Positions 3,531-16,817 of a stretch of 39,350 nucleotides of DNA are shown in pieces (positions within the stretch are counted from its first letter, which is position 1; each line of letters starts with the position of its first letter). The notes beneath the pieces were generated by a model. That model ran no database searches. It was not told the DNA's origin and was given only the letters and a program-made list of their open reading frames with translations. The DNA comes from a virus. The translations under genes and the position numbers were made by a program. The stretch is from positions 1 to 39,350 of the IMG/VR virus record IMGVR_UViG_3300021519_000021. One strand, written 5' to 3'.

Positions 3531-3565
3531 TAGACATCTGCTCTCACATCTGTTATGTTGTCTAC
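3531..3565 (+). promoter_or_regulatory. Repeated leaderless promoter, copy 1
   Basis: TAGACA (3531-3536) as -35, 17-bp spacer, TATGTT (3554-3559) as -10, then GTCTAC and the ATG at 3566. Spacing is ideal for a housekeeping sigma factor and puts the transcript start at the ATG, so the mRNA should be leaderless. The spacer ends in CTCACATCTGT, conserved in all copies but one mismatch. TAGACA and the downstream TGTCTA (3559-3564) form an inverted repeat that encloses the promoter. Confidence 0.85.
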
Positions 3566-3877
3566 ATGATCCAGACCGCCACCGCCACGACCACCAACGC
3601 AGCCTTTAAGGCAGCACGCGACACCTACTACGCTTCCTGCCGTGCCGCCCGCATCACCTGCGCCCGCACCATCGAAGCCGCCTCCGAGGTGTGCGCCGCC
3701 GCACGCGTTACCTACAGGGCAGCGTATGACAGCGCCACCGAGGCGACAGACATTAAGGATGCGCTGATTACCTACAACGCAGCCCGCGATGCTTACACCG
3801 CCGCCGCTGATGCCGCTCACGCAGTCAACGATGCTGCGATCGCCGCCGCCGAAGCTATCTACGCAGCTTTCGCCTGA
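3566..3877 (+). CDS. Alanine-rich helical small protein behind leaderless promoter 1
   Basis: 103 residues, about 40 percent alanine. The sequence repeats a unit like AARDTYYA / AARVTYRAAYDSA / NAARDAYTAAADAA, with small residues and a Tyr at regular spacing, so one or two long helices or a coiled coil are likely. It shares a 21-base identical stretch (3608-3628) and the motif KAARDTY with the protein at 10944-11159, so the two are paralogues. There is no ribosome binding site; the ATG is 6 bases after the -10. Function unknown. Being first in an early unit with its own strong promoter suggests high early expression. Confidence 0.7.
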   Translation: MIQTATATTTNAAFKAARDTYYASCRAARITCARTIEAASEVCAAARVTYRAAYDSATEATDIKDALITYNAARDAYTAAADAAHAVNDAAIAAAEAIYAAFA

Positions 3878-3881
3878 TTAC

Positions 3882-3899
3882 TAACCACCAACCACACAC
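3882..3899 (+). repeat. G-free intergenic 18-mer between first and second gene of the unit
   Basis: TAACCACCAACCACACAC is found here and, identical, at 12143-12160. A shorter version is at 6217-6228. In each case it lies between the leaderless first gene and a second gene with a purine-rich ribosome binding site (here GAGGA at 3901). It contains no G, so it should be unstructured RNA. Confidence 0.6.
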
Positions 3900-3915
3900 T
3901 GAGGAACCAACCACC

Positions 3916-4371
3916 ATGAACATTGACCACACCACCACGATCAGCCACATGAACGATAACGAAATCAATCTGCTCAACCGGGTTTGGCTTGCCGATGCGG
4001 ATGCCGCAGTCGCTGCCCGTGAAGCCCGAGAAGCCATGTATAGCGCCGACATCGCGTTATATACCGTCACGATCGTGCCCGGCAAGAAGCCCTCGGAGAT
4101 CGTCGCCGCAAGCGATGCGTACACCGCAGCCAAGTTCGCATCGGAACAGGCAGATGTGAAAGCACGCGACACCTACCGTTTCGCAGTGCAGTATCAGCAG
4201 GCACTGATCAAAATGACCGATCACCGTGCCGCCCGTAACGCTGCCGCTGAGGCACATAACGCAGCCGCACTCGCTTACGAATACTCCTTGAGCGATTACT
4301 ACAACATGGCTGACATGATTGACCGCACGACCCTGCGCAGCGCAGACGGCACGACAGTCGGTGCGGCATGA
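3916..4371 (+). CDS. Alanine-rich helical protein, second gene of unit 1
   Basis: 151 residues. The N-terminal 20 residues are polar (NIDHTTTISHMNDNEINLL); the rest is Ala/Glu/Arg-rich helix (DADAAVAAREAREAM, SDAYTAAKFASEQADVKARDTYRFA, HRAARNAAAEAHNAAALAYEY). The element KARDTYRFA resembles the repeat of the preceding protein. GAGGA at 3901-3905 is a plausible ribosome binding site. No known domain is recognised; a structural or DNA/protein-binding coiled-coil role is possible. Confidence 0.65.
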   Translation: MNIDHTTTISHMNDNEINLLNRVWLADADAAVAAREAREAMYSADIALYTVTIVPGKKPSEIVAASDAYTAAKFASEQADVKARDTYRFAVQYQQALIKMTDHRAARNAAAEAHNAAALAYEYSLSDYYNMADMIDRTTLRSADGTTVGAA

Positions 4372-4628
4372 GGCGCGGCGACTTCATCCTTGCCGTGTGC
4401 GCTGAGTGCGTACAGGTGACCGCTAATGGCACCGACGGCATGGATCTGACCGATGACCGCACCGCACAGATCACCGCAGGCACAGACGAAATGTCGGACG
4501 AGGGGTTCCACCTCATCGCAGTCGGTGAGGAACTAGGTTTCAGCCACAGCCCGTGCGACCTGTGCAGTCAGGCACACGCTGCGGGCGATCGTTTCACAGT
4601 ACTTGCGACATACAGGAAGCCACAATGA
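4368..4628 (+). CDS. Hypothetical protein with two CxxC pairs
   Basis: 86 residues, start overlapping the previous stop as ATGA. CAEC near residue 11 and CDLC near residue 64 (SPCDLCSQAH) could together bind one zinc ion. The middle is acidic and polar. Small zinc proteins of this sort are common in early regions of actinophages. No function recognised. Confidence 0.6.
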   Translation: MRRGDFILAVCAECVQVTANGTDGMDLTDDRTAQITAGTDEMSDEGFHLIAVGEELGFSHSPCDLCSQAHAAGDRFTVLATYRKPQ

Positions 4629-4993
4629 CACACCACACAATGACACTTGAGGAATGGCGGGCGCAGCAGACCGGGGCGACTCGCCCGGTCACTGATCCGT
4701 TCATGTCTACAGCGAAAGCCGAGCGGTCACGCAGTCTGTCTGCGATCGCGATTACCAGTAGCGCCGAGGACGACGCACTAGCAAAACTGGTTGCTGATCG
4801 GCAGCGACGCAAGACCGCAAACAGCACCGTGTCCACGGGTCGTGTGCGAGGCGAAATAGTCTGCGGCACACCCGAGGGCTACCGGGCGCATTATCGTGCC
4901 AAACAGACCTGTGTGGAGTGCACTGACGCGTTCCGAGCGCACATGCGGGCACTAGGTCTTGACGGTGACTCCACACGTTTGGTGCGTAAGTGA
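4625..4993 (+). CDS. Small protein with actinophage-type C..GY..H....C..C motif
   Basis: 122 residues, ATGA overlap with the preceding gene. Near residues 80-107 it carries CGTPEGYRAHYRAKQTCVEC, a cysteine/histidine pattern seen in many small actinobacteriophage proteins and likely a zinc finger. The first 75 residues are polar and low in complexity. It directly precedes the YqaJ nuclease gene, overlapping it by 4 bases. It may bind DNA or protein; this is inference. Confidence 0.6.
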   Translation: MTHHTMTLEEWRAQQTGATRPVTDPFMSTAKAERSRSLSAIAITSSAEDDALAKLVADRQRRKTANSTVSTGRVRGEIVCGTPEGYRAHYRAKQTCVECTDAFRAHMRALGLDGDSTRLVRK

Positions 4994-5928
4994 TGGGCAC
5001 GATTCTGAAACCGGAACACGGATCTGTTGAGTGGCTGCGTGTGCGACAGCGTGACACCGCCGGGCGGGTGCGTTTTGGTGCCAGTGAGGCACCGGTGTTG
5101 ATGGGTGTATCTAAGTTCTCAAACATGATTGATCTGGCGATCAACAAATGGACTGAGGCTACGGAACCAAACGAACCTAACGCTGCGATGGAACGCGGCA
5201 ACGTGCTGGAACCTGCGTTAGTGGATTACGCAGCGACACTCATGGGCTGCCCGGTGACGACACCGGCTGTGATGTATACCGCCGGGCGACTCATCGCGAC
5301 GCTTGACGGCATCACCGAGGCGACGCACCCTGACGACCCGGTGACGATCGTGGAAGCCAAGACGACCACATTCCACAGCAACGATGACCCGCTGCCGGTG
5401 GAGTATTACTGGCAGGGCATCGCACAGCTTGCGTGCGTGCCCGAGGCTGACCGGGTGTTGTTCGTCTGCTTAGATAAGCGGATGCGCCTCGGGCATTGGG
5501 TGTTGCTGCGCGACGAAAATGCAATCGCTGAGTTAGTGGCGCAGGCTGATGCGGTCGGGCGCAAACTGGATGCACGCGAGTTGCCGACCGATGTGGCACC
5601 GACCGAGGCGCAGGTTCGGTCGCTGTTCCCGCAGTCTGACGGCACGGTGGAGTTGCCGGTCGCTGCGGTGTCGGTGCTGGAGTTGTATCAGGCGGCACGG
5701 GCGACGCGTGAGGAAGCCGAGGCGGTAGAAAAAACGGCACGGGATCAGTTAGTGGCGATGCTTGGTGCGGCTGAGGTCGGCACGATCGCCGGGGAGCGTG
5801 TGGTGTCGTTCAAGTCTCGGAAGGGCACGGTGCGTGTGGACATGAAGTCGCTGGAGTTAGCGCACCCTGATTTGGTGGCTGCGTATCGGGTGCCGGGTGC
5901 GCCGGTGCGTGTTCTGAGATTTCTGTGA
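4990..5928 (+). CDS. YqaJ-family viral recombinase exonuclease
   Basis: 312 residues from a GTG at 4990 (ATG at 4993 is an equally good start, one residue shorter). The PD-(D/E)xK nuclease core is visible: RFGASEAPVLMG (about 28-39), RGNVLEPALVDY with E74, LIATLDGI with D106, IVEAKTT with E122 and K124, then YYWQGIAQLA with Q142. YqaJ/lambda-exonuclease enzymes degrade one strand of double-stranded DNA ends and leave a 3-prime tail for an annealing protein. An ERF annealing protein follows at 6238 and SSB at 7711, so a complete two-component recombination system is present. The C-terminal 90 residues are helical and look like a partner-binding part. Confidence 0.88.
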   Translation: MMGTILKPEHGSVEWLRVRQRDTAGRVRFGASEAPVLMGVSKFSNMIDLAINKWTEATEPNEPNAAMERGNVLEPALVDYAATLMGCPVTTPAVMYTAGRLIATLDGITEATHPDDPVTIVEAKTTTFHSNDDPLPVEYYWQGIAQLACVPEADRVLFVCLDKRMRLGHWVLLRDENAIAELVAQADAVGRKLDARELPTDVAPTEAQVRSLFPQSDGTVELPVAAVSVLELYQAARATREEAEAVEKTARDQLVAMLGAAEVGTIAGERVVSFKSRKGTVRVDMKSLELAHPDLVAAYRVPGAPVRVLRFL

Positions 5929-5945
5929 TTTGTTTCGTTTACTTG

Positions 5946-5980
5946 TAGACAGTCACCCTCACATCTGTTATGTTGTCTAC
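5946..5980 (+). promoter_or_regulatory. Repeated leaderless promoter, copy 2
   Basis: TAGACA (5946-5951), 17-bp spacer ending CTCACATCTGT, TATGTT (5969-5974), GTCTAC, ATG at 5981. The TAGACA/TGTCTA inverted repeat is intact. The flank is CTTG rather than the CTCC of the other copies. Confidence 0.85.
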
Positions 5981-6205
5981 ATGACACAGACACCAACCAC
6001 AGCCACCACCGCCGCACTCGCCGCACTCAAAGCCGACCGCACCAAGCGTGGCGATGCCGCCCGCAAAGCACTCAAGCAGATCAGCACCGACCTTTTCGCA
6101 GCGGTCGGGTGCGAGTTCAGCACTTTCGCAGACATCGCTGAGGAAGCCTGCGCCGCCGCAGGCATGGCACCTATCACCGTCAACATGATGCTGAACTTCG
6201 TCTAA
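5981..6205 (+). CDS. Small helical protein behind leaderless promoter 2
   Basis: 74 residues. Starts MTQT, like the gene at 11819. Ala/Thr-rich N-terminus, then a basic helix (KADRTKRGDAARKALKQI) and a C-terminal segment (FADIAEEACAAAGMAPITVNMML) with the shape of a helix-turn-helix, though not convincing. A longer frame from 5930 exists, but it would translate the promoter itself. It is the first gene of the unit that makes the ERF annealing protein, SSB and replication initiator. Function unknown. Confidence 0.65.
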   Translation: MTQTPTTATTAALAALKADRTKRGDAARKALKQISTDLFAAVGCEFSTFADIAEEACAAAGMAPITVNMMLNFV

Positions 6206-6216
6206 CCAAAATGATT

Positions 6217-6228
6217 ACCAACCACACA
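6217..6228 (+). repeat. C/A-rich intergenic element, short version
   Basis: ACCAACCACACA matches the core of the 18-mer at 3882 and 12143 and is followed at once by the GGAGAG ribosome binding site of the next gene. Confidence 0.45.
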
Positions 6229-6237
6229 GGAGAGAAA

Positions 6238-6915
6238 ATGAGCAACCAGATATACGCACTGATGTCGTCCGTAATGGGCGACGTAGGTGCAGTCCGCAAG
6301 AACGAGAAGAACGCCGCACAGGGCTTCAACTTCCGTGGCATTGACTCGGTGGTGAACGCAGTGTCACCGGCATTACGCAAACACGGTGTGATCGTGTTCC
6401 CGTCGTTGGTGTCGTGTGAGCAGACCACCGTCGAAGTCGGCGCACGCAACACCAAGATGGGACACTGCCGAGTTGTAGTGACCTACACATTTGCCGCACC
6501 CGATGGCAGCACCGTCGCTGCCACCGTCGCAGCCGAATCTATGGACTCGGGCGACAAGGCGACAGCTAAGGCAATGAGCGTTGCGTTCCGCACTGCACTA
6601 CTGCAAACACTGTGCCTGCCGACCGATGAGGTCGATCCCGACCACGATGTGTTTGAGCGGTCAGCACCTGCCACCGCAGTGCGTCGCACAGTCACCGCAG
6701 ACACCGCTGTGAAGCCCGCACAGGCGACCGGCACTAGCGGGCTGACTAAGACTCAACAAGTGTGGGTTCTGAAGCAGGTAGCGAACCGAGGCGAGTCGGA
6801 CGCAATGTCCGTTCTTTCTCGCATTATTGGGCGACCTATCGCAGCGTTTGAGGGTCTAAACGTAACCGAAGCCCGCGTTGTTCTCGCCGCACTGAGTGAG
6901 CCGGTGCCAGAATGA
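6238..6915 (+). CDS. erf: ERF-family single-strand annealing protein
   Basis: 225 residues. The N-terminal 140 residues fit the ERF superfamily: QIYALMSSVMGDVGAVRKN, then GFNFRGIDSVVNAVSPALRKHGV, a beta hairpin region and DKATAKAMSVAFRTALLQTLCLPT. These proteins form rings or filaments on single-stranded DNA and anneal complementary strands; the YqaJ exonuclease at 4990 is the natural partner. The C-terminal part (about 155-225) is a linker and a small helical domain. AGGAGAG just upstream is a good ribosome binding site; the ATG at 6238 is preferred over the one at 6211, which precedes the ribosome binding site. Confidence 0.88.
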   Translation: MSNQIYALMSSVMGDVGAVRKNEKNAAQGFNFRGIDSVVNAVSPALRKHGVIVFPSLVSCEQTTVEVGARNTKMGHCRVVVTYTFAAPDGSTVAATVAAESMDSGDKATAKAMSVAFRTALLQTLCLPTDEVDPDHDVFERSAPATAVRRTVTADTAVKPAQATGTSGLTKTQQVWVLKQVANRGESDAMSVLSRIIGRPIAAFEGLNVTEARVVLAALSEPVPE

Positions 6916-7214
6916 AACTCACCTACTCAAAGCATCGGCTGAACTTTCATTCGGACGACCCGTTGGTGGTTCATTCGTGGTGCGCTAAGACACGCGCCCG
7001 GATGCTTCGGTTTCACGGTTCCTGCGAGTTCAGCGCAGTCACTGTGATCGGTCACGGGCAGTGGATCACGGAAGCGTACGTCAAGATGCGGCGCGCCGGA
7101 ATCTTGCCGGACGACGCTCGCGACATGATCTGCAAGATTGTTTGTGCGGGCAACCTTGGTCGTGGCGAAAGCGGTTTGCGTTCTGTGCCGTCACGGGAAG
7201 CGGTGACAGCATGA
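6912..7214 (+). CDS. Hypothetical protein between ERF and a winged-helix protein
   Basis: 100 residues, ATGA overlap with the ERF gene. Contains three well-spaced cysteines (SWCAKTRARML, HGSCEFSAV, DMICKIVCAG), no known motif. Its tight coupling to recombination genes suggests a role in replication or recombination, but nothing in the sequence proves it. Confidence 0.6.
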   Translation: MKLTYSKHRLNFHSDDPLVVHSWCAKTRARMLRFHGSCEFSAVTVIGHGQWITEAYVKMRRAGILPDDARDMICKIVCAGNLGRGESGLRSVPSREAVTA

Positions 7215-7714
7215 GCGGCGCATACCCTGACGGCACAGGCGGGTGGAGCGGTGCTGACACATCACGCGATCGTGCTGAACACGAACGTGACACAGGCAAA
7301 CTGTCGCAGCGCCTTGTGTTGATCTTGCACGCGCTTGACATTGCCGGTGCGAGAGGTGCGACATGGAAGGAACTAGCAGACCTCACCGGGTGGCATCACG
7401 GGCGGGTGTCGTCGGCGCTGACCAATCTGCACAAACAGGGCTTGGTGTTCACGCTCAAGACGCGACGCAACCACTGTCACCCGTACGTCCACGGCGCGTG
7501 GCTGTACGACTGGTCACCGGGCGCTGTGAACTTGCAACCGACAGCGAACAAGAACGCACCGTTGCTAAAAGAGTTGGAAGCGGTCGCCGCCGCCGCCGAA
7601 GAACTACTGAACGAAATCGAAGTCAGCCGAGGTGCGTGGATCATCAACGATGACCGCATCGAAACACTGCACGACGCACTGAACAATCTCACTACAGCAA
7701 GGAACACGAAATGA
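7211..7714 (+). CDS. Winged-helix DNA-binding protein
   Basis: 167 residues, ATGA overlap at both ends. Residues about 30-95 fit a winged helix: LSQRLVLILHALDIAGARGAT, KELADLTGWHHGRVSSALTNLHKQGLVFT and a basic wing (LKTRRNHCHPYVHGAWLYDW). GWHHGRVSSALTNLHKQG is the likely recognition helix region of a MarR-like or replication-type fold. The C-terminal part is an acidic helix (LLKELEAVAAAAEELLNEIEV). It lies between ERF and SSB, so it may act in replication or regulate this unit. Confidence 0.65.
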   Translation: MSGAYPDGTGGWSGADTSRDRAEHERDTGKLSQRLVLILHALDIAGARGATWKELADLTGWHHGRVSSALTNLHKQGLVFTLKTRRNHCHPYVHGAWLYDWSPGAVNLQPTANKNAPLLKELEAVAAAAEELLNEIEVSRGAWIINDDRIETLHDALNNLTTARNTK

Positions 7715-8028
7715 ACAACATCACAGTCTGCGGCAACATCGGTGAGCCGACACTACGTTTCACCAAGACCGGCAAGGCGGTGCTGTCGTTCGGTCTGGCG
7801 ACGACCCGCAAGATCAACGATGAGGAACGCACCGTGTGGCACAACGTCACATGTTGGGACACACTCGCTGAGAATCTGGCGGCTGTCATCGGTAAGGGCG
7901 ACCGCCTGCTTGTCACCGGGCGCATCGAAACCGAGCAGTACACAGACAAGGAAGGTGCCAAACGCACCGCTGTCAACCTGATCGCTGACGAAGCAGGTGT
8001 GTCTATGCGATGGGTGAAGGACAGGTAG
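7711..8028 (+). CDS. ssb: Single-stranded DNA-binding protein
   Basis: 105 residues, ATGA overlap with the previous gene. The OB fold is typical of bacterial SSB: NNITVCGNIGEPTLRFTKTGKAVLSFGLAT, VWHNVTCWDTLAENLA, GDRLLVTGRIETEQYTDKEG. It ends right after the fold and lacks the long linker and the acidic C-terminal tip that recruits host repair proteins, so it should coat DNA without the usual protein contacts. It protects single strands during replication and ERF annealing. Confidence 0.92.
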   Translation: MNNITVCGNIGEPTLRFTKTGKAVLSFGLATTRKINDEERTVWHNVTCWDTLAENLAAVIGKGDRLLVTGRIETEQYTDKEGAKRTAVNLIADEAGVSMRWVKDR

Positions 8029-8038
8029 CATCGCACGC
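8026..8038 (+). promoter_or_regulatory. Leaderless-type -10 element upstream of whiB-like gene
   Basis: TAGCAT (8026-8031, overlapping the SSB stop TAG) is followed by 7 bases and the ATG at 8039. No Shine-Dalgarno sequence is present and no good -35 is seen. WhiB would gain its own internal start of transcription. Confidence 0.35.
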
Positions 8039-8272
8039 ATGTCTGACAGATGGCGTGATCGTGCCGAGTGTCGCGGTCACCCGGTCGGATGGTGGTTCCC
8101 GACGAATGCGGATTATGCGTGGGCGAAGGTGCTGTGCGACCGGTGCCCGGTGCGTCTTGACTGCCTGATTGATTCGGTCAGTCACGACGCTGACGATTAC
8201 GGCATGTTTGGTGGGCTGACACCCGGCGAACGATGGGTGTGGAAAAACCATTACCGGAAGGAACAGCGATGA
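8039..8272 (+). CDS. whiB: WhiB-family iron-sulfur transcription regulator
   Basis: 77 residues. Four conserved cysteines bind a 4Fe-4S cluster: C11, C33, C36 and C42 (LCDRCPVRLDC). The turn motif is GMFGG (55-59), where the family usually has GVWGG or GIWGG; TPGER follows as expected. The basic C-terminus (KNHYRKEQR) is the DNA-contacting tail. WhiB proteins occur only in actinobacteria and their phages and bind region 4 of the main sigma factor, changing promoter choice at the -35 side. The nearly invariant spacers of the repeated early promoters are possible targets, which is inference. Confidence 0.9.
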   Translation: MSDRWRDRAECRGHPVGWWFPTNADYAWAKVLCDRCPVRLDCLIDSVSHDADDYGMFGGLTPGERWVWKNHYRKEQR

Positions 8273-8727
8273 CCGACACCGTAGGACCAACCAAGGGTGA
8301 CTGCGGCTGCGGCTGCGGCATGTTCGGCACCATCACTGGCGACCGGCATGTGCGCGGCTGCGGGTGCGCTAAGTGCCGAGGCGGTCGGAACAGGCGAAAA
8401 GGTCTGACGAAACAGCGCGAGGCACGCAAGGCGTTAGGTGTCGCACCGTCACACAAGTTCGGTGACGCTAATGAGGAGAACTGGAACGACCCGATCTTTG
8501 CCAACGAGGTGAAGGCGGGCGCACAGATCAGCCCGGCGGTGACTGCGTGGACTCGCATCGAACATCAGGTGCTGTCTAATCAGACAGCTATCGGGTCGAT
8601 ACGCAAGCCGTGCCGGGCGGTGCTGATGCCTGACGGGTGGGGCAAGGAAGGGCTAGTGATGGTGCGGCTGTCTACATGGACAGACTTGGTGCGACCTGCG
8701 CTGGAGGACTACTACAGAATCGAATGA
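8269..8727 (+). CDS. Cysteine-rich protein with possible nuclease fold
   Basis: 152 residues, ATGA overlap with whiB. N-terminal cysteine cluster CGCGCG and GCGCAKCRGG, probably a zinc site, then a basic helix (RRKGLTKQREARKAL). The central stretch GDANEENWNDPIFANEVKAGAQ contains an acid-x-Lys element (EVK) after an E, reminiscent of small PD-(D/E)xK or resolvase-like enzymes, followed by RAVLMPDGWGKEGLVMVRLS. Placed between SSB/WhiB and the replication initiator, a Holliday junction resolvase or replication-linked nuclease is plausible, but the nuclease call is tentative. Confidence 0.5.
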   Translation: MTDTVGPTKGDCGCGCGMFGTITGDRHVRGCGCAKCRGGRNRRKGLTKQREARKALGVAPSHKFGDANEENWNDPIFANEVKAGAQISPAVTAWTRIEHQVLSNQTAIGSIRKPCRAVLMPDGWGKEGLVMVRLSTWTDLVRPALEDYYRIE

Positions 8728-8736
8728 GGGAGACAG

Positions 8737-9597
8737 ATGGGCAAGCAAGGGCTGTGGGTGAAACTGTCGGTCGGGTATTTTGATGACGACCGGGTGATGG
8801 AAGCGGGCACCGAGGCAGAACTTCTATTTGTGCGTGGGCTTGCGTGGGGTAAGCGTGACAACACCGGCACGATCACCCGAGGCGCGATGGTGCGGCTTGG
8901 GGTAGGGCTGAGTGACCCGCTAGAGGCTGCCAGAACGCTGTGTGCGCTGCGACTGTGGTGCGAGGTGGAGAACGGTTACCGGGTGACCGCATGGGACGAT
9001 TGGCAGGTCGTCAGTGATCGTGTGGTGAAACAGTCGGCTGCGGGTAAACGGGCGGCGCACACCCGCTGGCACAAGACCACACCGGTCGCCGGATGCGATC
9101 TATGCGATTCCGATGCGATTCGTATGCGACCCGTATGCGATGACGATGCGATTCGTATGCGACCCGCAATGCAAGAGAAAGAGAAAGAGAAAGATATAAA
9201 GAAAGAGAACTTGCCCATCGCAGGCGATGCGGCGAGTGCATTCGCACAGTTCTGGCATGTCTGGCCGAAACGCATCGGTAAGGGCGCAGCCGAGAAAGCA
9301 CACCGGCGGGCAGTGGCGAAGGTTGGCGCTGATCGTGTGCTGACCGGCGCACAGGCTGTCGCTGATCGGTGGCTGACAATGCCGCCCGGCGATCGCCAGT
9401 TTGTGCCATATCCCGAGCGATGGCTGAACGCCGGGCAGTGGGATGATGAGTTAGACACACCCTCGGGCGCGCCGTTTGATAACCTGACGGGTGTACGGGT
9501 CACGGTGCCTGAGTGCGACCTGTGTGACAGCACCGGGTGGCGCGAGGTCGGTGACCGCATCGTGGAGCCGTGCGACTGTCGAAAGGTGGAAGCGTGA
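8737..9597 (+). CDS. Replication initiator (lambda O-like organisation) with C-terminal zinc motif
   Basis: 286 residues. The N-terminal part (about 1-115) is a winged-helix DNA-binding module of the replisome-organiser type (LWVKLSVGYFDDDRVMEAG, ELLFVRGLAWGKR, EARTL-like helices). Residues about 120-158 are a repetitive linker (DAIRMRP twice, then a Lys/Glu run) because the DNA here holds the iteron array at 9093-9210. The second part has the replication-protein signature FWHVWPKRIGKGAAEKAHRRAV and YPERWLNAGQWDDE. The end has CDLCDSTGW and CDC, a likely zinc site. No polymerase, primase or helicase gene is seen, so this protein probably loads the host helicase. Confidence 0.75.
   Translation: MGKQGLWVKLSVGYFDDDRVMEAGTEAELLFVRGLAWGKRDNTGTITRGAMVRLGVGLSDPLEAARTLCALRLWCEVENGYRVTAWDDWQVVSDRVVKQSAAGKRAAHTRWHKTTPVAGCDLCDSDAIRMRPVCDDDAIRMRPAMQEKEKEKDIKKENLPIAGDAASAFAQFWHVWPKRIGKGAAEKAHRRAVAKVGADRVLTGAQAVADRWLTMPPGDRQFVPYPERWLNAGQWDDELDTPSGAPFDNLTGVRVTVPECDLCDSTGWREVGDRIVEPCDCRKVEA
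9093..9210 (+). other. Predicted replication origin: 11-bp phased iterons plus purine-rich unwinding stretch
   Basis: Seven copies of ATGCGA start at 9093, 9102, 9113, 9124, 9135, 9146 and 9157; the last six are exactly 11 bp apart, about one helical turn. A 23-bp segment is identical at 9111-9133 and 9144-9166. Directly after it, 9174-9210 is a run of A and G with a TATAAA island, the most A/T-rich stretch nearby. Iterons inside the initiator gene, followed by an easily melted stretch, copy the lambda ori/O arrangement. Function is inferred from this pattern. Confidence 0.7.
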
Positions 9598-9755
9598 TAG
9601 TGATGGAAACCTACTGTGTGGCACTCGCCGCACTCATGTTCGTTGTGTCGTTGCTTGGTCTGCCCTCGGCAGATATGGCAGCCCGCACCGCCTCGGTCAT
9701 ACAGATCGCGTTCGGCATCGGTCTGATCGGTGTTGTGATGATGGCGTTCCGATGA
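9594..9755 (+). CDS. Small membrane protein with two helices
   Basis: 53 residues from GTG at 9594 (GTGA overlap with the initiator stop; GAAAGGTGGA upstream serves as ribosome binding site). Two hydrophobic segments, TYCVALAALMFVVSLLGL and VIQIAFGIGLIGVVMMAF, flank a short polar loop. A small hairpin membrane protein; role unknown. Confidence 0.6.
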   Translation: MIVMETYCVALAALMFVVSLLGLPSADMAARTASVIQIAFGIGLIGVVMMAFR

Positions 9756-10021
9756 TCGTGGAGCAAATCATGTGGGCAGACCATGTGGAACCGGCAAACA
9801 CCGGGAACGTGTGGTGGTCACCCGACGATCTGGAACAGGTTGTAGGACCGATCACCGTGACCTCGGTCGGATGGGTAGTGAAAGAAACAGATGACTGGTT
9901 GCTGATCGTGTCGCAGATGTCGGCAGACGGGTGGACAAATCAGCCGCTAGTCATCATCAAGTCATGTGTACTGAACCGCACACATCTGTGCGTCAATCAA
10001 TCAACGAAGGAGATGCCATGA
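9752..10021 (+). CDS. Hypothetical protein, WW-rich
   Basis: 89 residues, ATGA overlaps at both ends, so it belongs to the coupled unit. Tryptophan-rich with beta character (GNVWWSPDDLEQVVG, VTSVGWVVKETDDWLLIVSQM). No family recognised. It directly precedes the XRE regulator. Confidence 0.6.
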   Translation: MIVEQIMWADHVEPANTGNVWWSPDDLEQVVGPITVTSVGWVVKETDDWLLIVSQMSADGWTNQPLVIIKSCVLNRTHLCVNQSTKEMP

Positions 10022-10230
10022 GCATCAGCGACAACATCAGAAAAGCCCGCACCGGTGCCGGTCTGTCACAGGAACAAGCAGCCATCGCTGTCGGTGTCGG
10101 TGTTCAGACGATCTACTCATGGGAGGCAGGTATCAGGCAGCCCAACTACCTGAACGCGCTACGACTAGAGCGCGTTTACGGTGTGTCACACACCGAGTTT
10201 CTGCGTTCCCTGACACCGGTGGCACAGTGA
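10018..10230 (+). CDS. XRE/Cro-family helix-turn-helix regulator
   Basis: 70 residues. A complete HTH_3 domain: NIRKARTGAGLSQEQAAIAVGVGVQTIYSWEAGIRQPNYLNALRLERVYGVS, with the turn at GVGVQTIYSWEAG. GAAGGAG at 10005-10011 is a strong ribosome binding site. It is in the middle of a unit rather than divergent from another gene, so it is more like a Cro-type early switch than a lysogeny repressor; no integrase is present. The inverted TAGACA/TGTCTA arms around four of the repeated promoters are a possible operator, which is inference. Confidence 0.85.
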   Translation: MSISDNIRKARTGAGLSQEQAAIAVGVGVQTIYSWEAGIRQPNYLNALRLERVYGVSHTEFLRSLTPVAQ

Positions 10231-10607
10231 AGGTCGCCGCTCTAGTGGTGTCAGGTCTGCTGTCACTCGGTCAGTGCGGCGCACGCATACCCGAGGCGAT
10301 GCCCGGTGTCGAACACTGCGCTGCGCTGATGCCGGTGGCGGTCGCCGCAGGGTGGCCGACGGCTGAGTTGAAGAAACTGTCGCGGGTGATCTGGCGTGAG
10401 TCGCGCTGCGACCCGGCTGCGTATAACGGAACAGGACCGGATGACAGCTATGGGCTAGTCCAGATCAACTTGAAAGGGTATCTGTGGCGCGGTCGGGCGG
10501 TGCTGTGTGGGCTGACCGAGCGGGCTGACCTGTTTGATCCGGCGACGAATCTGCGGTGTGCGTTGGTGCTGTGGCAGCGGTCGGGTTGGTCGCCGTGGCG
10601 CATGTGA
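10227..10607 (+). CDS. Secreted lytic transglycosylase-like (SLT/lysozyme fold) protein
   Basis: 126 residues from GTG at 10227 (GTGA overlap). The N-terminus (VAALVVSGLLSLGQCG) looks like a signal peptide, with a cysteine at 17 but an imperfect lipobox. The enzyme core shows VIWRESRCDPAAYN with E58 as the likely catalytic acid, DDSYGLVQINLKG (72-84) and the closing NLRCALVLWQRSGWSPW. This is the transglycosylase/lysozyme-like pattern, acting on peptidoglycan glycan strands. It lies in the early region, far from the lysis genes, so wall changes early in infection, exclusion of other phages or a later role in lysis are all possible. Confidence 0.75.
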   Translation: MKVAALVVSGLLSLGQCGARIPEAMPGVEHCAALMPVAVAAGWPTAELKKLSRVIWRESRCDPAAYNGTGPDDSYGLVQINLKGYLWRGRAVLCGLTERADLFDPATNLRCALVLWQRSGWSPWRM

Positions 10608-10627
10608 AAAGAAATCTGGATTACTCC

Positions 10628-10662
10628 TAGACAGTCACCCTCACATATGTTATGTTCACTAC
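10628..10662 (+). promoter_or_regulatory. Repeated leaderless promoter, copy 3
   Basis: TAGACA (10628-10633), 17-bp spacer with CTCACATATGT (one change), TATGTT (10651-10656), CACTAC, ATG at 10663. The downstream TGTCTA arm is lost here (TCACTA). The 25 bases 10609-10633 are identical to 13367-13391. Confidence 0.85.
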
Positions 10663-10947
10663 ATGAACAACACAGCAACCACAGCCAAGTCCACCTATCA
10701 GAATGCGGTCTACAGCTCCATCTACTATGTCGCCCGCCCGATCTATGGCACAATGGCGCACAGCGGATATGTGCAAACAGTTACTTACGACGACGGTTAC
10801 ACCAACAAGAACGTTGGAACGTTCTGCTCAGTCACAGTCCAGTACAACCCGAGCAAGTCACCTGCGATGCCGCTTGACGAAGTCGCTGCGATCATCACCT
10901 GCCCAAAGTGCATCAAGCGCACCGCTAATAGGTTGGGGGTGAAGTGA
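10663..10947 (+). CDS. Hypothetical protein behind leaderless promoter 3
   Basis: 94 residues, begins MNNT and ends with a CPKC motif (IITCPKCIKRTANRLG) that, with C near residue 56, might bind a metal. Tyr/Thr-rich beta-like middle. The longer upstream frame from 10534 would translate the promoter and is rejected. No family recognised. Confidence 0.65.
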   Translation: MNNTATTAKSTYQNAVYSSIYYVARPIYGTMAHSGYVQTVTYDDGYTNKNVGTFCSVTVQYNPSKSPAMPLDEVAAIITCPKCIKRTANRLGVK

Positions 10948-11159
10948 TGAGCAAGACCTACACCACCGACACCACTGCAGTCGCCGCAGCGGAAGCCGCA
11001 CTGACCGCAGCCCTCGCCGCCGCTGATGCCGCCTACCACACCGCCCGTGACGCATACAAGGCAGCACGCGACACCTACAGCGCCGCAGTCGCCGCCGCCT
11101 ACGATCAGTGCAGCGCCGCAGTCGCCGCCGCCATCTTCAGCACCGAGGTGACACAGTGA
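10944..11159 (+). CDS. Alanine-rich helical small protein, paralogue of 3566-3877
   Basis: 71 residues from GTG at 10944 (GTGA overlap) or 70 from ATG at 10947, with a GGGGGTGAAG ribosome binding site. About half alanine, with the repeating unit AYHTARDAYKAARDTYSAAVAAAY; it shares 21 identical bases (11058-11078) with the protein at 3566. A long amphipathic helix is expected. Function unknown. Confidence 0.65.
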   Translation: MMSKTYTTDTTAVAAAEAALTAALAAADAAYHTARDAYKAARDTYSAAVAAAYDQCSAAVAAAIFSTEVTQ

Positions 11160-11410
11160 GCGGATCATTGAGGCGCAACGAGTGGACACGCACCGCACCC
11201 GGTCTGTGGACATCAAACGAGGACGACACCGTGCAGGTCGCCACAGCCTGCGAGTGCCGCTACACCGGCTGCGCCGGTCGGTGGCAGGTGCTGTGCGACC
11301 GTCTGCCGTACAGCGTGCAAGGCACGCTCATGTTCCGCACACGCGCCGAAGCCATCGCTGAGGCAGCACAGTGGATTCACAGTGGCGGCATTGGCGGTGT
11401 GTGGAAATGA
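11156..11410 (+). CDS. Hypothetical cysteine-containing small protein
   Basis: 84 residues from GTG at 11156 (GTGA overlap). The stretch CECRYTGCAGRWQVLCDRL has four cysteines; the rest (TLMFRTRAEAIAEAAQWIHSGGIG) is a helix. Could be a small metal-binding protein. No family recognised. Confidence 0.55.
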   Translation: MSGSLRRNEWTRTAPGLWTSNEDDTVQVATACECRYTGCAGRWQVLCDRLPYSVQGTLMFRTRAEAIAEAAQWIHSGGIGGVWK

Positions 11411-11589
11411 GTCTTTACACCGCCGCACTCGCCGCCCGGTCTGCCGCACTCGCCGCAGGTTTGGCAGTCAACACACAGGCACGCAGTGGCGACGCAGGGC
11501 TTGCCGAGTGGAGCGCTGCCGCTGCCGCATACGAAGCCGCTTGCGCCGAGGTCGAAGCCATTGAAGCCGCAATGGAGCGTGCGCTGTGA
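11407..11589 (+). CDS. Alanine-rich small helical protein
   Basis: 60 residues, ATGA overlap. Nearly half alanine: YTAALAARSAALAAG, then AEWSAAAAAYEAACAEVEAIEAAME. Resembles the other Ala-rich early proteins in composition, but not clearly in repeat. Function unknown. Confidence 0.55.
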   Translation: MSLYTAALAARSAALAAGLAVNTQARSGDAGLAEWSAAAAAYEAACAEVEAIEAAMERAL

Positions 11590-11759
11590 TTGTCCGTAAC
11601 CCGGCACGGTGGCTGCGCCGCAAACGCCAGTTCCTCGCAGTGTTCGCTGCGGTGTTCCTGACTCACATGAGCGCGCTAGAGGATCAGCCGCCGCATTGGG
11701 GTTTGATAGCGCTCTACACCTGCGGGCTGTGGGCGATGGCGTTCCGAGTCGCTGACTGA
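11586..11759 (+). CDS. Small membrane protein with basic N-terminus
   Basis: 57 residues from GTG at 11586 (GTGA overlap). A basic start (RNPARWLRRKRQ) is followed by hydrophobic helix FLAVFAAVFLTHMSAL, a polar loop with DQPPHW and a second helix GLIALYTCGLWAMAF. Positive-inside rule puts both ends in the cytoplasm. Last gene of the unit before promoter copy 4. Function unknown. Confidence 0.55.
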   Translation: MIVRNPARWLRRKRQFLAVFAAVFLTHMSALEDQPPHWGLIALYTCGLWAMAFRVAD

Positions 11760-11783
11760 TTTCTAGTTTGTTTGAGTTACTCC

Positions 11784-11818
11784 TAGACATCTGCTCTCAC
11801 ATCTGTTATGTTGTCTAC
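11784..11818 (+). promoter_or_regulatory. Repeated leaderless promoter, copy 4
   Basis: TAGACA (11784-11789), 17-bp spacer identical to copy 1, TATGTT (11807-11812), GTCTAC, ATG at 11819. Inverted repeat arms intact. Confidence 0.85.
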
Positions 11819-12145
11819 ATGACACAGACCACACACCGCATCACCGCCGCCGAATGCTTCGTGATTATGACCGCCAACAACCACTACTTGTCGCAAGACC
11901 CTAACCACATCCCCAACTGGGACGATGAGGAAGATTATTCGACCGGGTACATGTTCGACCGCATCGGTCGCTACGCAGTCACATTCCCCACAGTCGCCGC
12001 CGCCCGCCAGTTTATTCGCGACTGGAACATGGACACCCGCAAGGTCACCGTCGCCCGGCGCGCCGCACAGGTCGCACTCACCGAAGCAGGTCGCACCGCA
12101 GTCGCTGACCGTCGCGCCGCCCGCAACGCAGACCGCAAGTTCTAA
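11819..12145 (+). CDS. Hypothetical protein behind leaderless promoter 4
   Basis: 108 residues, begins MTQTTHRITAAECFVIMTAN. The centre is acidic and aromatic (HIPNWDDEEDYSTGYMFDRIGRYAV); the C-terminal 35 residues are a basic Arg/Ala helix (VTVARRAAQVALTEAG, VADRRAARNADRKF). The basic helix could bind nucleic acid. No family recognised. It precedes the DUF932 gene and may act with it. Confidence 0.65.
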   Translation: MTQTTHRITAAECFVIMTANNHYLSQDPNHIPNWDDEEDYSTGYMFDRIGRYAVTFPTVAAARQFIRDWNMDTRKVTVARRAAQVALTEAGRTAVADRRAARNADRKF

Positions 12146-12160
12146 CCACCAACCACACAC
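12143..12160 (+). repeat. G-free intergenic 18-mer, second identical copy
   Basis: Identical to 3882-3899 and again between the leaderless first gene and an SD-led second gene (GAAGGA at 12162-12167). It begins with the stop codon of the first gene. Confidence 0.6.
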
Positions 12161-12175
12161 AGAAGGAAACCTGAC

Positions 12176-13177
12176 ATGAGCAAAGAAACACTGGAATGGC
12201 TGAACACCAACGTGCTAGTCGGCATGACCGACAAACGCGGCAACGCATGGCACCACCGCCGCAGCGCACAGGGTGACGAAGCAAACCACTACACAGGCGC
12301 AATCCCGATCGAAGATGTGCGCCGCCGCCTGTTTGACTGGAAGGCAGTGGAGATGCCGATGTTCTTCCAGACACCGCTCGGCATGATGCCAGTCGAAGGA
12401 CGCAAAGCCATCGTGCGCGATGACACCTACGCAGTGCTTGGTGTGCCCTCGGCACGATACGCACCGCACCAATACGATGAATGGTTGCTGTCGTCAGTCG
12501 CCAATCTGCTGGACGATGACCTCATCATCGGGTCAGCCGGTCTGTTGCGAGGCGGTGCGGTCGCATGGGTGCAAGTCGAAATGCCCGAAAACCTGCGCGC
12601 CGGTGACGTTGAGTTTCGCCCAAACCTGTTGGCGACAACATCGTTCGATGGCAGCATTGCCTCCACATTTAAGCGCACAGCGACGATCGTGGTTTGCGAC
12701 AACACCCGACACGCAGCCCTGAACGAAACCGGTCAGGCATGGTCAGTGAAGCACACCGCACACAGCGCGCTGCGAGTCGCTGAGGCACGCACCGCCACCA
12801 ACATCATCTTCGACCTCGGCAAAACCTTCCAAGCCGAAATCGAAGCCATGCTTGCGGTCAGGGTCACTGACCAACAGTTCACCCGGTGGGTGGATTTAAT
12901 GGAGCCGCTCGGTGACGATGAGTCCAAGGCACGCACCACACGCACTAAGAACACCCGGCAGGTTTTGCAGGAGATGTGGACGGGTGATGCTCGGGTGACA
13001 CCGTGGAAGAACACCGGGTTCGGTGTCATGCAAGTCGCTAACACATTCCGGCAGCACCTGCGCCCGACTCGCGGCAACACCCTGACGGTGGAGCGCACAA
13101 TGATGGAGTCGCTACAGGGTTCCGGCGCTGATGCCGATGCTGATGCCGCCCGTTTGTTGATGGCGGTGGCAGGGTGA
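12176..13177 (+). CDS. DUF932 phage/plasmid-like protein
   Basis: 333 residues, with the family's usual length and features: N-terminal GNAWHHRR, then YAVLGVPSARYAPHQYDEWLLSSVANLL, GSAGLLRGGAVAWVQVEMPE, LLATTSFDGSIASTFKRTATIVVCDNTRHAAL and a C-terminal helical part with MQVANTFRQHL. DUF932 proteins are frequent in actinobacterial phages and plasmids; their biochemical role is unknown. GAAGGA at 12162 and ATG at 12176 give a good start. The end (GADADADAARLL) is low-complexity. Confidence 0.85.
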   Translation: MSKETLEWLNTNVLVGMTDKRGNAWHHRRSAQGDEANHYTGAIPIEDVRRRLFDWKAVEMPMFFQTPLGMMPVEGRKAIVRDDTYAVLGVPSARYAPHQYDEWLLSSVANLLDDDLIIGSAGLLRGGAVAWVQVEMPENLRAGDVEFRPNLLATTSFDGSIASTFKRTATIVVCDNTRHAALNETGQAWSVKHTAHSALRVAEARTATNIIFDLGKTFQAEIEAMLAVRVTDQQFTRWVDLMEPLGDDESKARTTRTKNTRQVLQEMWTGDARVTPWKNTGFGVMQVANTFRQHLRPTRGNTLTVERTMMESLQGSGADADADAARLLMAVAG

Positions 13178-13368
13178 CCGATGGGACACCGATGACGGTG
13201 TGGCGGTGTCGTGCGTGTGGGCGCACGACTACCGCTGCGGTCTGCCTGAGTGTGGCGCATTTTGCTGCGCCGACTTGCACGAACCCGGTGCACTGGCATC
13301 AGGCGATGGATGCGGTGCGTACGCAGCAACCGGACGGGTCGTGGGAGCCAAGTTATGGGCGGCGCTAA
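13174..13368 (+). CDS. Small zinc-finger-like protein
   Basis: 64 residues from GTG at 13174 (GTGA overlap with DUF932). CRACG near the start, followed by VCLSVAH and PTCTNPVHWH, gives a CxxC plus C/H pattern fit for zinc. Function unknown. Confidence 0.55.
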   Translation: MTDGTPMTVWRCRACGRTTTAAVCLSVAHFAAPTCTNPVHWHQAMDAVRTQQPDGSWEPSYGRR

Positions 13369-13385
13369 GAAATCTGGATTACTCC

Positions 13386-13420
13386 TAGACACTGGCTCTC
13401 ACATCTGTTATGTTCACTAC
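13386..13420 (+). promoter_or_regulatory. Repeated leaderless promoter, copy 5
   Basis: TAGACA (13386-13391), 17-bp spacer ending CTCACATCTGT, TATGTT (13409-13414), CACTAC, ATG at 13421. Like copy 3 it lacks the TGTCTA arm and drives a gene that starts MNN. Confidence 0.85.
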
Positions 13421-13948
13421 ATGAACAACAACCACATCATCCCAACCACCCGCCCACAGAACGCAGGTCGCAATTCCTGCACTGCGATTCGCCCACGCGA
13501 CTTCAGCGCCGAGGACATGGTGACACTCCCCGGCACCCGGTCACGCCACGAACAGCCGCACCGCTGGACTCGCCCGGTACTTGATGCCGTGGTCGAAGCC
13601 GTCGCCGGTAACACCGTCAGCATCACCGTAGACACCAACACAGGTCACACGATCTGCGGTGTGCAACTCATCGGCACAAACCTCGGTCGCGGCATTACGT
13701 CGAATCACTCACTGGTCATCCGTATCTGGCACGACGAAAACTGCACGGAGCCTTTGACCTTGGCTGACGGTCGCATTCGTGCCGCTTGCCCGACCGGGTG
13801 TCGCGGTTACCACGACACTGACTACCCGATCAACGCCATCGGTGAGATCTTCCCCGATCCGACGGTGATCTTGGAAGGCGCAAAGTGGAAGGCGCTAGAC
13901 ATCCTCCGAGCCAAGAACCGTGCGATCTGTGAGGCGGCGACAGCCTGA
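13421..13948 (+). CDS. Hypothetical protein behind leaderless promoter 5
   Basis: 175 residues; mixed alpha/beta with a cysteine pair region (ENCTEPL, AACPTGCRGYHD). A single-gene unit: it has its own promoter and is followed by an intrinsic terminator at 13968. No family recognised. The longer frame from 13250 runs through the promoter and is rejected. Confidence 0.65.
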   Translation: MNNNHIIPTTRPQNAGRNSCTAIRPRDFSAEDMVTLPGTRSRHEQPHRWTRPVLDAVVEAVAGNTVSITVDTNTGHTICGVQLIGTNLGRGITSNHSLVIRIWHDENCTEPLTLADGRIRAACPTGCRGYHDTDYPINAIGEIFPDPTVILEGAKWKALDILRAKNRAICEAATA

Positions 13949-13967
13949 CCGTCACAGCCCTCGGCTG

Positions 13968-14008
13968 ACTTGTGCCCGCTGCCGATGGTGGCGGGCACAA
14001 GTGTTTTT
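13968..14008 (+). terminator. Intrinsic terminator after the unit-5 gene
   Basis: A perfect 12-bp stem (ACTTGTGCCCGC at 13968-13979 with its complement at 13991-14002) and an 11-base loop, followed by GTTTTT. It separates unit 5 from promoter copy 6. Confidence 0.88.
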
Positions 14009-14029
14009 CAGATAGTTAGCGAATGCTCC

Positions 14030-14064
14030 TAGACAGTCACCCTCACATCTGTTATGTTGTCTAC
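14030..14064 (+). promoter_or_regulatory. Repeated leaderless promoter, copy 6
   Basis: TAGACA (14030-14035), 17-bp spacer identical to copy 2, TATGTT (14053-14058), GTCTAC, ATG at 14065. Inverted repeat arms intact. Confidence 0.85.
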
Positions 14065-14211
14065 ATGAGCAACCACACAGACACCGCACTGACCATCCTG
14101 ATGGAAGCGATGGCAACCACCCGCCGCCAGTCATGCCCGACCGCCACCAACGATGAAATCGCTGACAGCATCAAGGCATCACTCATTCGCATGATGACCG
14201 AGGCAAAGTGA
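14065..14211 (+). CDS. Small hypothetical protein behind leaderless promoter 6
   Basis: 48 residues, helical (TALTILMEAMATTRR, DEIADSIKASLIRMM). No ribosome binding site; ATG 6 bases after the -10. Coupled to the next gene by an ATGA overlap. Function unknown. Confidence 0.65.
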   Translation: MSNHTDTALTILMEAMATTRRQSCPTATNDEIADSIKASLIRMMTEAK

Positions 14212-14696
14212 TGACATACGCAACACTGACACCGCTGACCACAGCAACCGGCGATCGTCGCTACGCATCGCCCGGCTGTACCTCACAGGGCGACTCAAAG
14301 CCCGTGTTCATCTGCGAGTGCGGCAAGCCCGTCGTATGGGTTAAGTCGAAGCGCACAGACAAGAACTACATCGCCAACGTGTTTGCCGGTGCGATGGGCG
14401 CACTGCACTACCGGGGCGCATCAGTACATGACCGTGACACCTGCGCCAGTGACCGTGCCGCCAAGGTCGCAGCCAAAGACCCGCAGACAATCGCACGGGT
14501 CGCAGCACTGTTTGAGATTGCAGTCGCCGCAGGCGAAGCGCTCACCGCCGCCGCCGCTGCGTGGAACGCTTACGATGCCGCATGGATTCCCGGCACCGAG
14601 TATGACGACAGCTTTGATCGTGCGATGTGCAAAGCACGCGAGGTTGTCACCGCCACCGGTGCCGAGTATCACGCAGCCCTGACTGCTGCCGGGTGA
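14208..14696 (+). CDS. Hypothetical protein with cysteine motif and Ala-rich C-terminal helix
   Basis: 162 residues. The N-terminal half has GCTSQGD and FICECGKPVVWVK, then a C near 84 (RDTCASDRA), which suggests a metal site of unfinished zinc-ribbon type. The C-terminal half is Ala-rich helix (VAALFEIAVAAGEALTAAAAAWNAYDAAW and later AREVVTATGAEYHAAL). It ends unit 6 and is followed by a terminator. Function unknown. Confidence 0.6.
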   Translation: MMTYATLTPLTTATGDRRYASPGCTSQGDSKPVFICECGKPVVWVKSKRTDKNYIANVFAGAMGALHYRGASVHDRDTCASDRAAKVAAKDPQTIARVAALFEIAVAAGEALTAAAAAWNAYDAAWIPGTEYDDSFDRAMCKAREVVTATGAEYHAALTAAG

Positions 14697-14718
14697 CCGG
14701 CGCTGCGCCTCACACGAT

Positions 14719-14756
14719 CTGCCCGCTGCCTAACGGTGGCGGGCAGTTCTATTTTT
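14719..14756 (+). terminator. Intrinsic terminator at the end of the early region
   Basis: An 8-bp perfect stem CTGCCCGC (14719-14726) with GCGGGCAG (14739-14746), 12-base loop, followed by TTCTATTTTT. It closes the early region before the modification/packaging unit. Confidence 0.8.
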
Positions 14757-14843
14757 CACCACACACCCGACCGACGACCTGCCGCCAACCACAACCACAG
14801 ATCGCCAGTCGGGGATGCGTCGCAAGCGTATCGCTCATGTGTC

Positions 14844-14856
14844 TAGACTTCGACAC
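14844..14856 (+). promoter_or_regulatory. Leaderless-type -10 element before the modification island
   Basis: TAGACT (14844-14849), 7 bases, ATG at 14857. No Shine-Dalgarno sequence and no clear -35. As it follows a terminator, some promoter is needed here, and this is the best candidate for the start of the long late unit. Confidence 0.45.
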
Positions 14857-15471
14857 ATGACCGATGGGAAACTGAAAACCGAATACATCACCCTGACCAA
14901 ACTGACACCACACCCTCGCAACGTGCGGCAAGGCGACGTAGGTGCAATCAGCCAATCACTCACCGAACACGGGCAGTACCGCCCAATCGTTGTCCAGCGT
15001 TCCACCGGGCACATCGTCGCCGGGAACCACACCTATCGCGCCGCATCCGCACTCGGCTGGAAACAAGTCGCAGTTACCTATCTGGACATCACTGATGATG
15101 AGGCACTGCGCATCCTCCTAGTTGACAACCGCACTAACGACCTCGCCGCCTACGATGACGCAGCCTTAACCGATCTACTCACAGCCCTCGCAGCCACTGA
15201 ACAAGCACTCACCGGCACCGGGTTTGATGGCGACGACCTTGACGACCTACTGTTCAAAACCACCGCCAACGCAGGCAACCTGATGGCAGGGCTATCAGCA
15301 CCCGAGCGACGCGATCAGTGGGAGAGCCTTGACGCACGCACCATGATCCTGACGTTCACCAAAGACGATCACAAAACGATGTCTGACATGATGACCGCAC
15401 TACGCAAACGCATGGAAGTTGAAAGCAACTCGGCGCTAGTCGAAATCTTGGTTAGGAATGCCAGTGCGTGA
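14857..15471 (+). CDS. ParB-like (ParB/sulfiredoxin N-terminal domain) protein
   Basis: 204 residues from ATG 14857; a longer frame from 14815 would read through the likely promoter. The ParB-N fold is clear: LTPHPRNVRQGDVGAISQSL, then GQYRPIVVQRSTGHIVAGNHTYRAA (ParB box at about 55-63), and AVTYLDITDDEALRILLVDNR. There is no parA partner and no KorB-type HTH, so plasmid partition is unlikely. ParB-like domains of this kind often lie next to DNA-modifying enzymes in phages; members bind nucleotides and can be DNA-targeting or nicking. It overlaps the dioxygenase gene by 14 bases, so they are co-translated. Confidence 0.82.
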   Translation: MTDGKLKTEYITLTKLTPHPRNVRQGDVGAISQSLTEHGQYRPIVVQRSTGHIVAGNHTYRAASALGWKQVAVTYLDITDDEALRILLVDNRTNDLAAYDDAALTDLLTALAATEQALTGTGFDGDDLDDLLFKTTANAGNLMAGLSAPERRDQWESLDARTMILTFTKDDHKTMSDMMTALRKRMEVESNSALVEILVRNASA

Positions 15472-16276: not shown

Positions 16277-16280
16277 CCGC

Positions 16281-16814: not shown

Positions 16815-16817
16815 CAC

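Follow-up and report, generated by a model that had tools for sequence, protein, structure and literature searches.

The 39,350-base virus record IMGVR_UViG_3300021519_000021 of IMG/VR, analyzed over its whole length (hereafter the window), carries on its + strand six near-identical elements in which TAGACA, 17 bp, TATGTT, 6 bp and an ATG follow each other. We propose that these elements are probably leaderless promoter/start cassettes of one family, which evolve in concert and stand at the head of early genes that can be exchanged. The proposal draws on the anatomy of the six copies and on a comparison with the sole close relative in IMG/VR, the 16,090-base contig IMGVR_UViG_3300036985_002398 (L279), which has about 90% DNA identity to the window where the two can be aligned.

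Six elements with the layout of leaderless promoters

The initial annotation had listed six copies with exact spacings of 17 and 6 bp, and all of them were found as described (elements A to F, Table 1). The full pattern occurred 0 times in 100 shuffles of the window, and a looser scan allowing up to three mismatches returned the same six copies and no seventh in the window. The tract at the end of the spacer, CTCACATCTGT, is exact in five of the six copies, and the odd copy, at 10628, has CTCACATATGT with one mismatch, also in agreement with the initial annotation. A gene begins in frame at each of the six ATGs. Repeat finding delimited a family of six copies of about 86 nt, from about -52 to about +34 around the ATG, and thus longer than initially described and reaching into the gene.

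All six elements score as sigma-70-like with a TG one base before the second hexamer, which makes an extended -10 of the sigma-A type (TGTTATGTT); the tract directly 5' of the -10 is TGN in six of six. The A of the ATG is base 7 after the -10 hexamer, where transcription is expected to start, and no Shine-Dalgarno (SD) sequence is present ahead of any of the six ATGs. This is the actinobacterial leaderless layout, in which TANNNT lies about 6-9 nt before a 5'-terminal start codon and no SD is found. SD-like motifs are present ahead of the second genes in several units, at 3916 (TGAGGAAC), 6238 (CAGGAGAG) and 12176 (AGAAGGAA). Most transcription starts of M. tuberculosis have a TANNNT -10, purines are favored as the first transcript base, and among the genes whose primary start has been mapped, 26% are leaderless (PMC3898074). 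The extended -10, the ATG at the expected start and the absence of an SD support the earlier reading of the elements as promoters whose transcripts would begin on the ATG. There is no need for the special sigma/WhiB complex that had been suggested along with it, given that in M. tuberculosis TGNTANNNT is both the most active form of the TANNNT -10 and the strongest class of promoter (PMC3898074).

With the six elements excluded, TANNNT was found 6-7 nt before the ATG of an open reading frame (ORF) of at least 40 codons eight times on the coding strand vs twice on the other strand, and leaderless starts therefore seem to be common in this phage, with the six-copy family as the special part. Among these leaderless-spaced starts are 135, 1299, 1921, 8039 (WhiB), 14857 (ParB-like) and 18643. 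As a separate observation, an inverted repeat TGTGTC/GACACA surrounds a leaderless-spaced TAGACT at the start of the ParB-like gene (window 14830-14860, TGTGTCTAGACTTCGACACATG) and is conserved in L279.

A/C-rich first codons

The first codons of the gene behind element A are rich in A and C, and like tracts follow the ATGs at 5981, 10663, 11819, 13421 and 14065, with an A+C content of 0.76-0.91 across the six. Over the first 33 nt (about 11 codons) after the ATG, the mean A+C content is 0.83 for the six elements and 0.84 for the five of L279, compared with 0.545 (sd 0.117, maximum 0.76) for the 51 other genes of the window (P = 4e-5), and the predicted RNA structure of the first 50 nt is weaker at the elements (-4.7 vs -10.4 kcal/mol, P = 0.001); because several of the eleven gene starts share sequence, they are not independent, and the P values overstate the case. 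Gene 13421, which is conserved in L279, has a different start sequence yet the top A+C value (0.91). CA repeats after the start codon have been reported to raise the translation of leaderless mRNA (PMC9031893), and the A/C-rich codons may act as a translation enhancer.

Concerted change of the elements in a close relative

L279 has five copies of the element, at the sites of A to E. Each reads TAGACA-N6-CTCACATCTGT-TAGTGTT, followed by CATTAC (four copies) or CACGC (one copy) and the ATG. The spacing of 17 between -35 and -10 is kept, the new -10, TAGTGT, still fits TANNNT, and the ATG lies 7 bases (once 6) behind it. Thus, the -10 region and the discriminator have changed jointly in all five copies with the layout kept, and CTCACATCTGT is unchanged in 10 of the 11 copies over both phages. 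Element identity is 0.89 within the window and 0.87 within L279, whereas it is 0.82 for the same site and 0.81 for different sites across the two phages; for the upstream flank (-300 to -61), the identity is 0.87 for the same site and 0.55 for different sites. Judged from these alignments, the element copies show concerted evolution, because within-genome identity exceeds same-site identity across phages, unlike in the upstream flank. The six bases that follow TAGACA come in three variants (TCTGCY, GTYACY and CYGGCT), which occur in both phages, mostly at different sites, and the copies therefore predate the split and were shuffled, not homogenised over their whole length. The concerted change can be explained by gene conversion as well as by selection for a common reader, and the two are indistinguishable here.

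If the elements were duplicated repeats kept alike by recombination alone, with an ordinary resemblance to promoters and no special function as exchange sites, the greater likeness of copies within a genome than at the same site of the two phages would be explained, and the phage itself encodes ERF and YqaJ. However, the 17 spacing and the ATG position have survived an insertion in the -10 region, the three spacer types persist in both phages as expected for old copies without homogenisation of the whole unit, and every copy stands at an ORF start. We therefore consider this explanation quite improbable.

The TAGACA/TGTCTA inverted repeat that had been reported for four copies is seen in elements A, B, D and F. 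Elements C and E have TTCACTA instead, and the TGTCTA arm is absent in all five L279 copies. The initial annotation had taken the arm to be lost from two copies, and the direction of this change is probably wrong: the arm-less window copies (CACTAC) resemble the L279 discriminator CATTAC, and the CATTAC and CACGC copies of L279 alike resemble the arm-less form, so that a gain of the arm in the window lineage appears more likely than a loss. Nor is the inverted repeat supported as the mark of one regulator, as had been supposed, since it is missing from all five L279 copies; with the arm in 4/6 window copies and 0/5 L279 copies, this repeat is not a conserved operator.

A broader form of the same idea is that the elements are operators through which one phage regulator (XRE, WhiB or other) switches the six units, its site being CTCACATCTGT and/or the TAGACA/TGTCTA repeat. 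The constancy of CTCACATCTGT in the two phages, despite the changed adjacent -10 and discriminator, speaks for such a site, and a trans-acting factor may still take part; the unit headed by element B also holds a MarR-like gene besides WhiB and XRE, and the promoters known as extended start-associated sequences (ESAS) in cluster K mycobacteriophages bear inverted repeats over the -35 and -10. On the other side, the arm is missing from seven copies in the two phages (five in L279 and two in the window), and the end of the tract (TGT) is accounted for by the extended -10. WhiB is 99% and XRE 94% identical in both phages though the -10 and discriminator have changed, and these positions are therefore not read by a diverging WhiB/XRE-type regulator. 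It is unlikely, in our view, that the elements are operators of this kind.

Exchange of genes behind the elements

At sites A, B, C and D, four of the five shared sites, the first gene is unrelated between the window and L279, apart from the first codons. At site B, gene 5981 of the window (MTQTPTTATTA) and gene 2556 of L279 (MTQTPTTNMTA) have a start of about 7-11 codons in common. At site C, the starts of window gene 10663 (MNNTATT) and L279 gene 7457 (MNNTPTT) are likewise in common, and the start MxNHTDTA is common to window gene 14065 and L279 gene 8654, which are at different sites. Gene 13421, at site E, is the only first gene kept in L279 (87% identity). For most genes neighboring the elements, the identity between the phages is 85-100%. 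Of six divergent segments that exceed 200 bp over 16.6 kb, five lie at an element (Table 1), and the sixth (16256-16882) does not. Taken together, the alignments indicate that genes have been replaced at the elements. The swapped proteins had no Pfam or PHROG family match. Small Ala-rich proteins encoded at 3566, 3916, 10947, 11407 and 14211, some of them behind elements, have recurring AARDTY-like segments.

Element F and its two genes (14065 and 14211) are flanked by two strong terminators, T1 and T2. The T1 region (13960-14010) has a minimum free energy z-score of -6.0, and T1 directly before element F forms a terminator-promoter composite at that single site. L279 does not have cassette F. 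A single terminator is found there (L279:10640-10700), whose left half corresponds to T1 and right half to T2, and whose outer stem no longer pairs. As far as its sequence tells, this hybrid terminator is what a recombination event joining T1 to T2 would leave behind as a scar. Lambdoid morons are promoter-gene-terminator cassettes that stand between conserved genes in one phage and are absent from a relative. Cassette F, with a promoter and a terminator of its own and missing from the close relative, thus behaves moron-like, being lost or gained as a unit.

A model for the elements

We propose a start cassette specific to the phage, of which the six elements are copies. It has a sigma-A-type extended -10, and transcription would start on the A of the ATG. 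The A/C-rich, weakly structured first codons would suit ribosome entry on leaderless mRNA, and host RNA polymerase would read all six elements soon after infection, leading to co-expression of the six units. Since the promoter moves together with the start codon and the first codons, any frame joined behind them would be expressed, and the elements would act as sockets for accessory early genes, where related phages swap the gene or genes that open a unit. Gene conversion, selection for a common reader, or both would keep the copies within a genome alike, and the phage ERF and YqaJ are plausible agents of recombination between the short repeats.

Besides the shared gene starts mentioned above, several points weigh against this model. 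Neither TAGACA as a -35 hexamer nor TATGTT as a -10 is perfect, and we infer the start sites and the promoter strength from sequence and the early timing of the units from gene content. The comparison is with a single close relative, represented by a 16-kb contig. Rapid divergence of small genes could mimic replacement, yet homology ends sharply after the first codons. A general tie between leaderless spacing and A/C-rich starts is weak in distant relatives, whose leaderless-spaced ATGs are barely A/C-richer (0.551 vs 0.523), and the A/C feature thus belongs to the repeated elements and is no general rule.

More tentatively, it is possible that the elements represent a general phage strategy, in which a portable module consists of a promoter, a leaderless ATG and a start tag that enhances translation, the coding body behind it is swapped, and each lineage changes all its modules together. 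If so, an imported frame would at once be strongly and early expressed without a promoter or ribosome-binding site of its own. L279 separates the parts that are kept (promoter spacing, extended -10, ATG and first codons) from the part that is swapped (the gene). The genes behind the elements would provide a direct list of uncharacterized early genes with a possible action against the host, and it becomes testable whether leaderless starts help phages import genes.

Distribution of the element

The initial annotation had proposed a search for the motif in other phages and in metagenomes, which found the element in L279 alone among the viral contigs scanned. BLAST of the element against 50,697 phage records gave weak chance matches only, and 397 sampled genomes from the phylum of an Actinomarina genome yielded no copy of the element, apart from one chance match with two mismatches. 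Exact matches to a 15-base pattern in 76 viral and 115 bacterial stretches had no spacer in common and were dismissed as chance. Among named phages, there was no direct nucleotide relative of the window. A distant relative (contigs L200, L201 and L313; 69% terminase identity) has a two-copy element of its own, CTGACAATCTGNGGTTATAGT-6-ATG, at 7652 and 9088 in L200. This element is leaderless and is followed by A/C-rich codons (ATGGAAAACA..., 0.85 and 0.82), which suggests that the strategy is not unique. The likeness between the spacers of the window element and of L200 (ACATCTG / ACAATCTG) is out of register.

Phage genes and probable host

The host is probably actinobacterial, because the phage has a WhiB-like gene and nearly all named phages with a relative of its DUF932 protein infect actinobacteria. 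A tandem array of an 11-bp unit (TATGCGATTCG / TATGCGACCCG) at 9101-9166, inside the replication initiation-like gene, may represent iterons or an origin. Next to the ParB-like gene, 15458-16276 has a borderline match to the Tet_JBP 2-oxoglutarate oxygenase domain (34.8 bits, just below the cut-off), and its product is possibly a base modification enzyme. Gene 28005 contains in-frame 24-nt tandem repeats (AGGCxxTCGGTGAGGAATC) at 28633-28716.

Table 1. Positions in the window of the elements and of the features discussed in the text (aa, amino acids).
Feature	Position	Strand	Remarks
Element A	3531..3568	+	ATG 3566, 103-aa Ala-rich gene
A/C-rich first codons of gene A	3569..3601	+	A+C composition
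YqaJ-like exonuclease	4993..5928	+	Possible recombination partner of ERF
Element B	5946..5983	+	ATG 5981, 74-aa gene
Unit B, after the 74-aa gene			ERF (6238), SSB (7711), WhiB (8039), replication initiation-like (8737), XRE (10018)
ERF-family single-strand annealing protein	6238..6915	+	
WhiB-like protein	8039..8272	+	Leaderless candidate itself (TAGCAT-7-ATG); regulator candidate
XRE/HTH_3 protein	10018..10230	+	Regulator candidate
Element C	10628..10665	+	Spacer CTCACATATGT, discriminator CACTAC; ATG 10663, 94-aa gene
Element D	11784..11821	+	ATG 11819, 108-aa gene, then DUF932 protein (12176)
Element E	13386..13423	+	Discriminator CACTAC; ATG 13421, 175-aa gene
Terminator T1	13968..14002	+	Between gene 13421 and element F; 16-bp stem and T run
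Element F	14030..14067	+	ATG 14065, 48-aa gene, then 161-aa gene (14211)
Terminator T2	14719..14746	+	Closes cassette F
Divergent segments at elements	3535-4420, 5988-6235, 10657-11002, 11685-12169, 13934-14781		

Comparison with known systems

Repeated phage promoters before variable small genes are already known from T4 and cluster K, and the role of ESAS and of the start-associated sequence (SAS) has been unclear since 2011; the window would be a simpler version without the ribosome-binding motif. The analogy to mycobacteriophage start-associated repeats drawn in the initial annotation is borne out. ESAS are currently understood to be SigA-like promoters that are repeated and carry an inverted repeat (PMC11373665), and three of the seven ESAS right arms of a K4 phage end on the start codon (PMC12699233), so that cluster K may also hold leaderless or near-leaderless repeated promoters. 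Like ESAS, the elements are SigA-like promoters that occur in several near-identical copies among non-structural genes, with a small and often unrelated gene behind each copy, and their -35/-10 spacing falls in the 17-18 bp described for ESAS (PMC11373665). The ESAS consensus differs between subclusters, and the elements of the window and L279 likewise differ by phage.

However, ESAS have inverted-repeat arms of 15-17 bp over the -35 and -10/+1, whereas the arm here is 6 bp and present in 4 of 11 copies, and imperfect 17-bp inverted repeats of the ESAS type (ESAS of Anaya and Kratio were inspected for comparison) were not found in the elements. ESAS normally precede a leader with a 13-bp SAS/ribosome-binding motif, whereas the window elements have neither SAS nor leader; the SAS GGGATAGGAGCCC, located 3-9 bp before the start codon in cluster K, had no match in the window with up to two mismatches. 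Although both systems place a repeated promoter of the SigA-like type ahead of small variable genes and have a consensus that varies by phage (PMC3203893, PMC11373665), it is therefore extremely improbable that the elements are cluster K-type ESAS in a new phage group, and we reject such membership on the SAS, the arm length and the leader. In their way of working, ESAS are the nearest known system.

In T4-like phages, early promoters precede many novel ORFs (PMC1524935), and PeSL promoter-terminator cassettes mediate gene shuffling (PMC4503421 and references therein). PeSL cassettes are composites of a stem-loop terminator and an early promoter, present in many copies. The elements are similar in that a conserved, putatively early promoter stands in many copies before novel ORFs, that divergent segments at the elements and the hybrid terminator of L279 mark sites of gene shuffling, and that a composite is present at cassette F. 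They differ in that a terminator lies ahead of one of the six copies only (element F), that the starts are leaderless, and that sequence and host are unrelated.

Cassette F resembles a lambdoid moron in its presence in the window and absence from L279, but its promoter is one of six shared with the core early units. Like the leaderless TGNTANNNT promoters of mycobacteria and other actinobacteria, whose start is the first base of the start codon, the elements have an extended -10 and a predicted start on that base. We know of no host leaderless promoters that occur as near-identical copies including shared first codons. Thus, the elements are a new variant within the known systems of repeated phage promoters, which works like ESAS and PeSL and belongs to neither.

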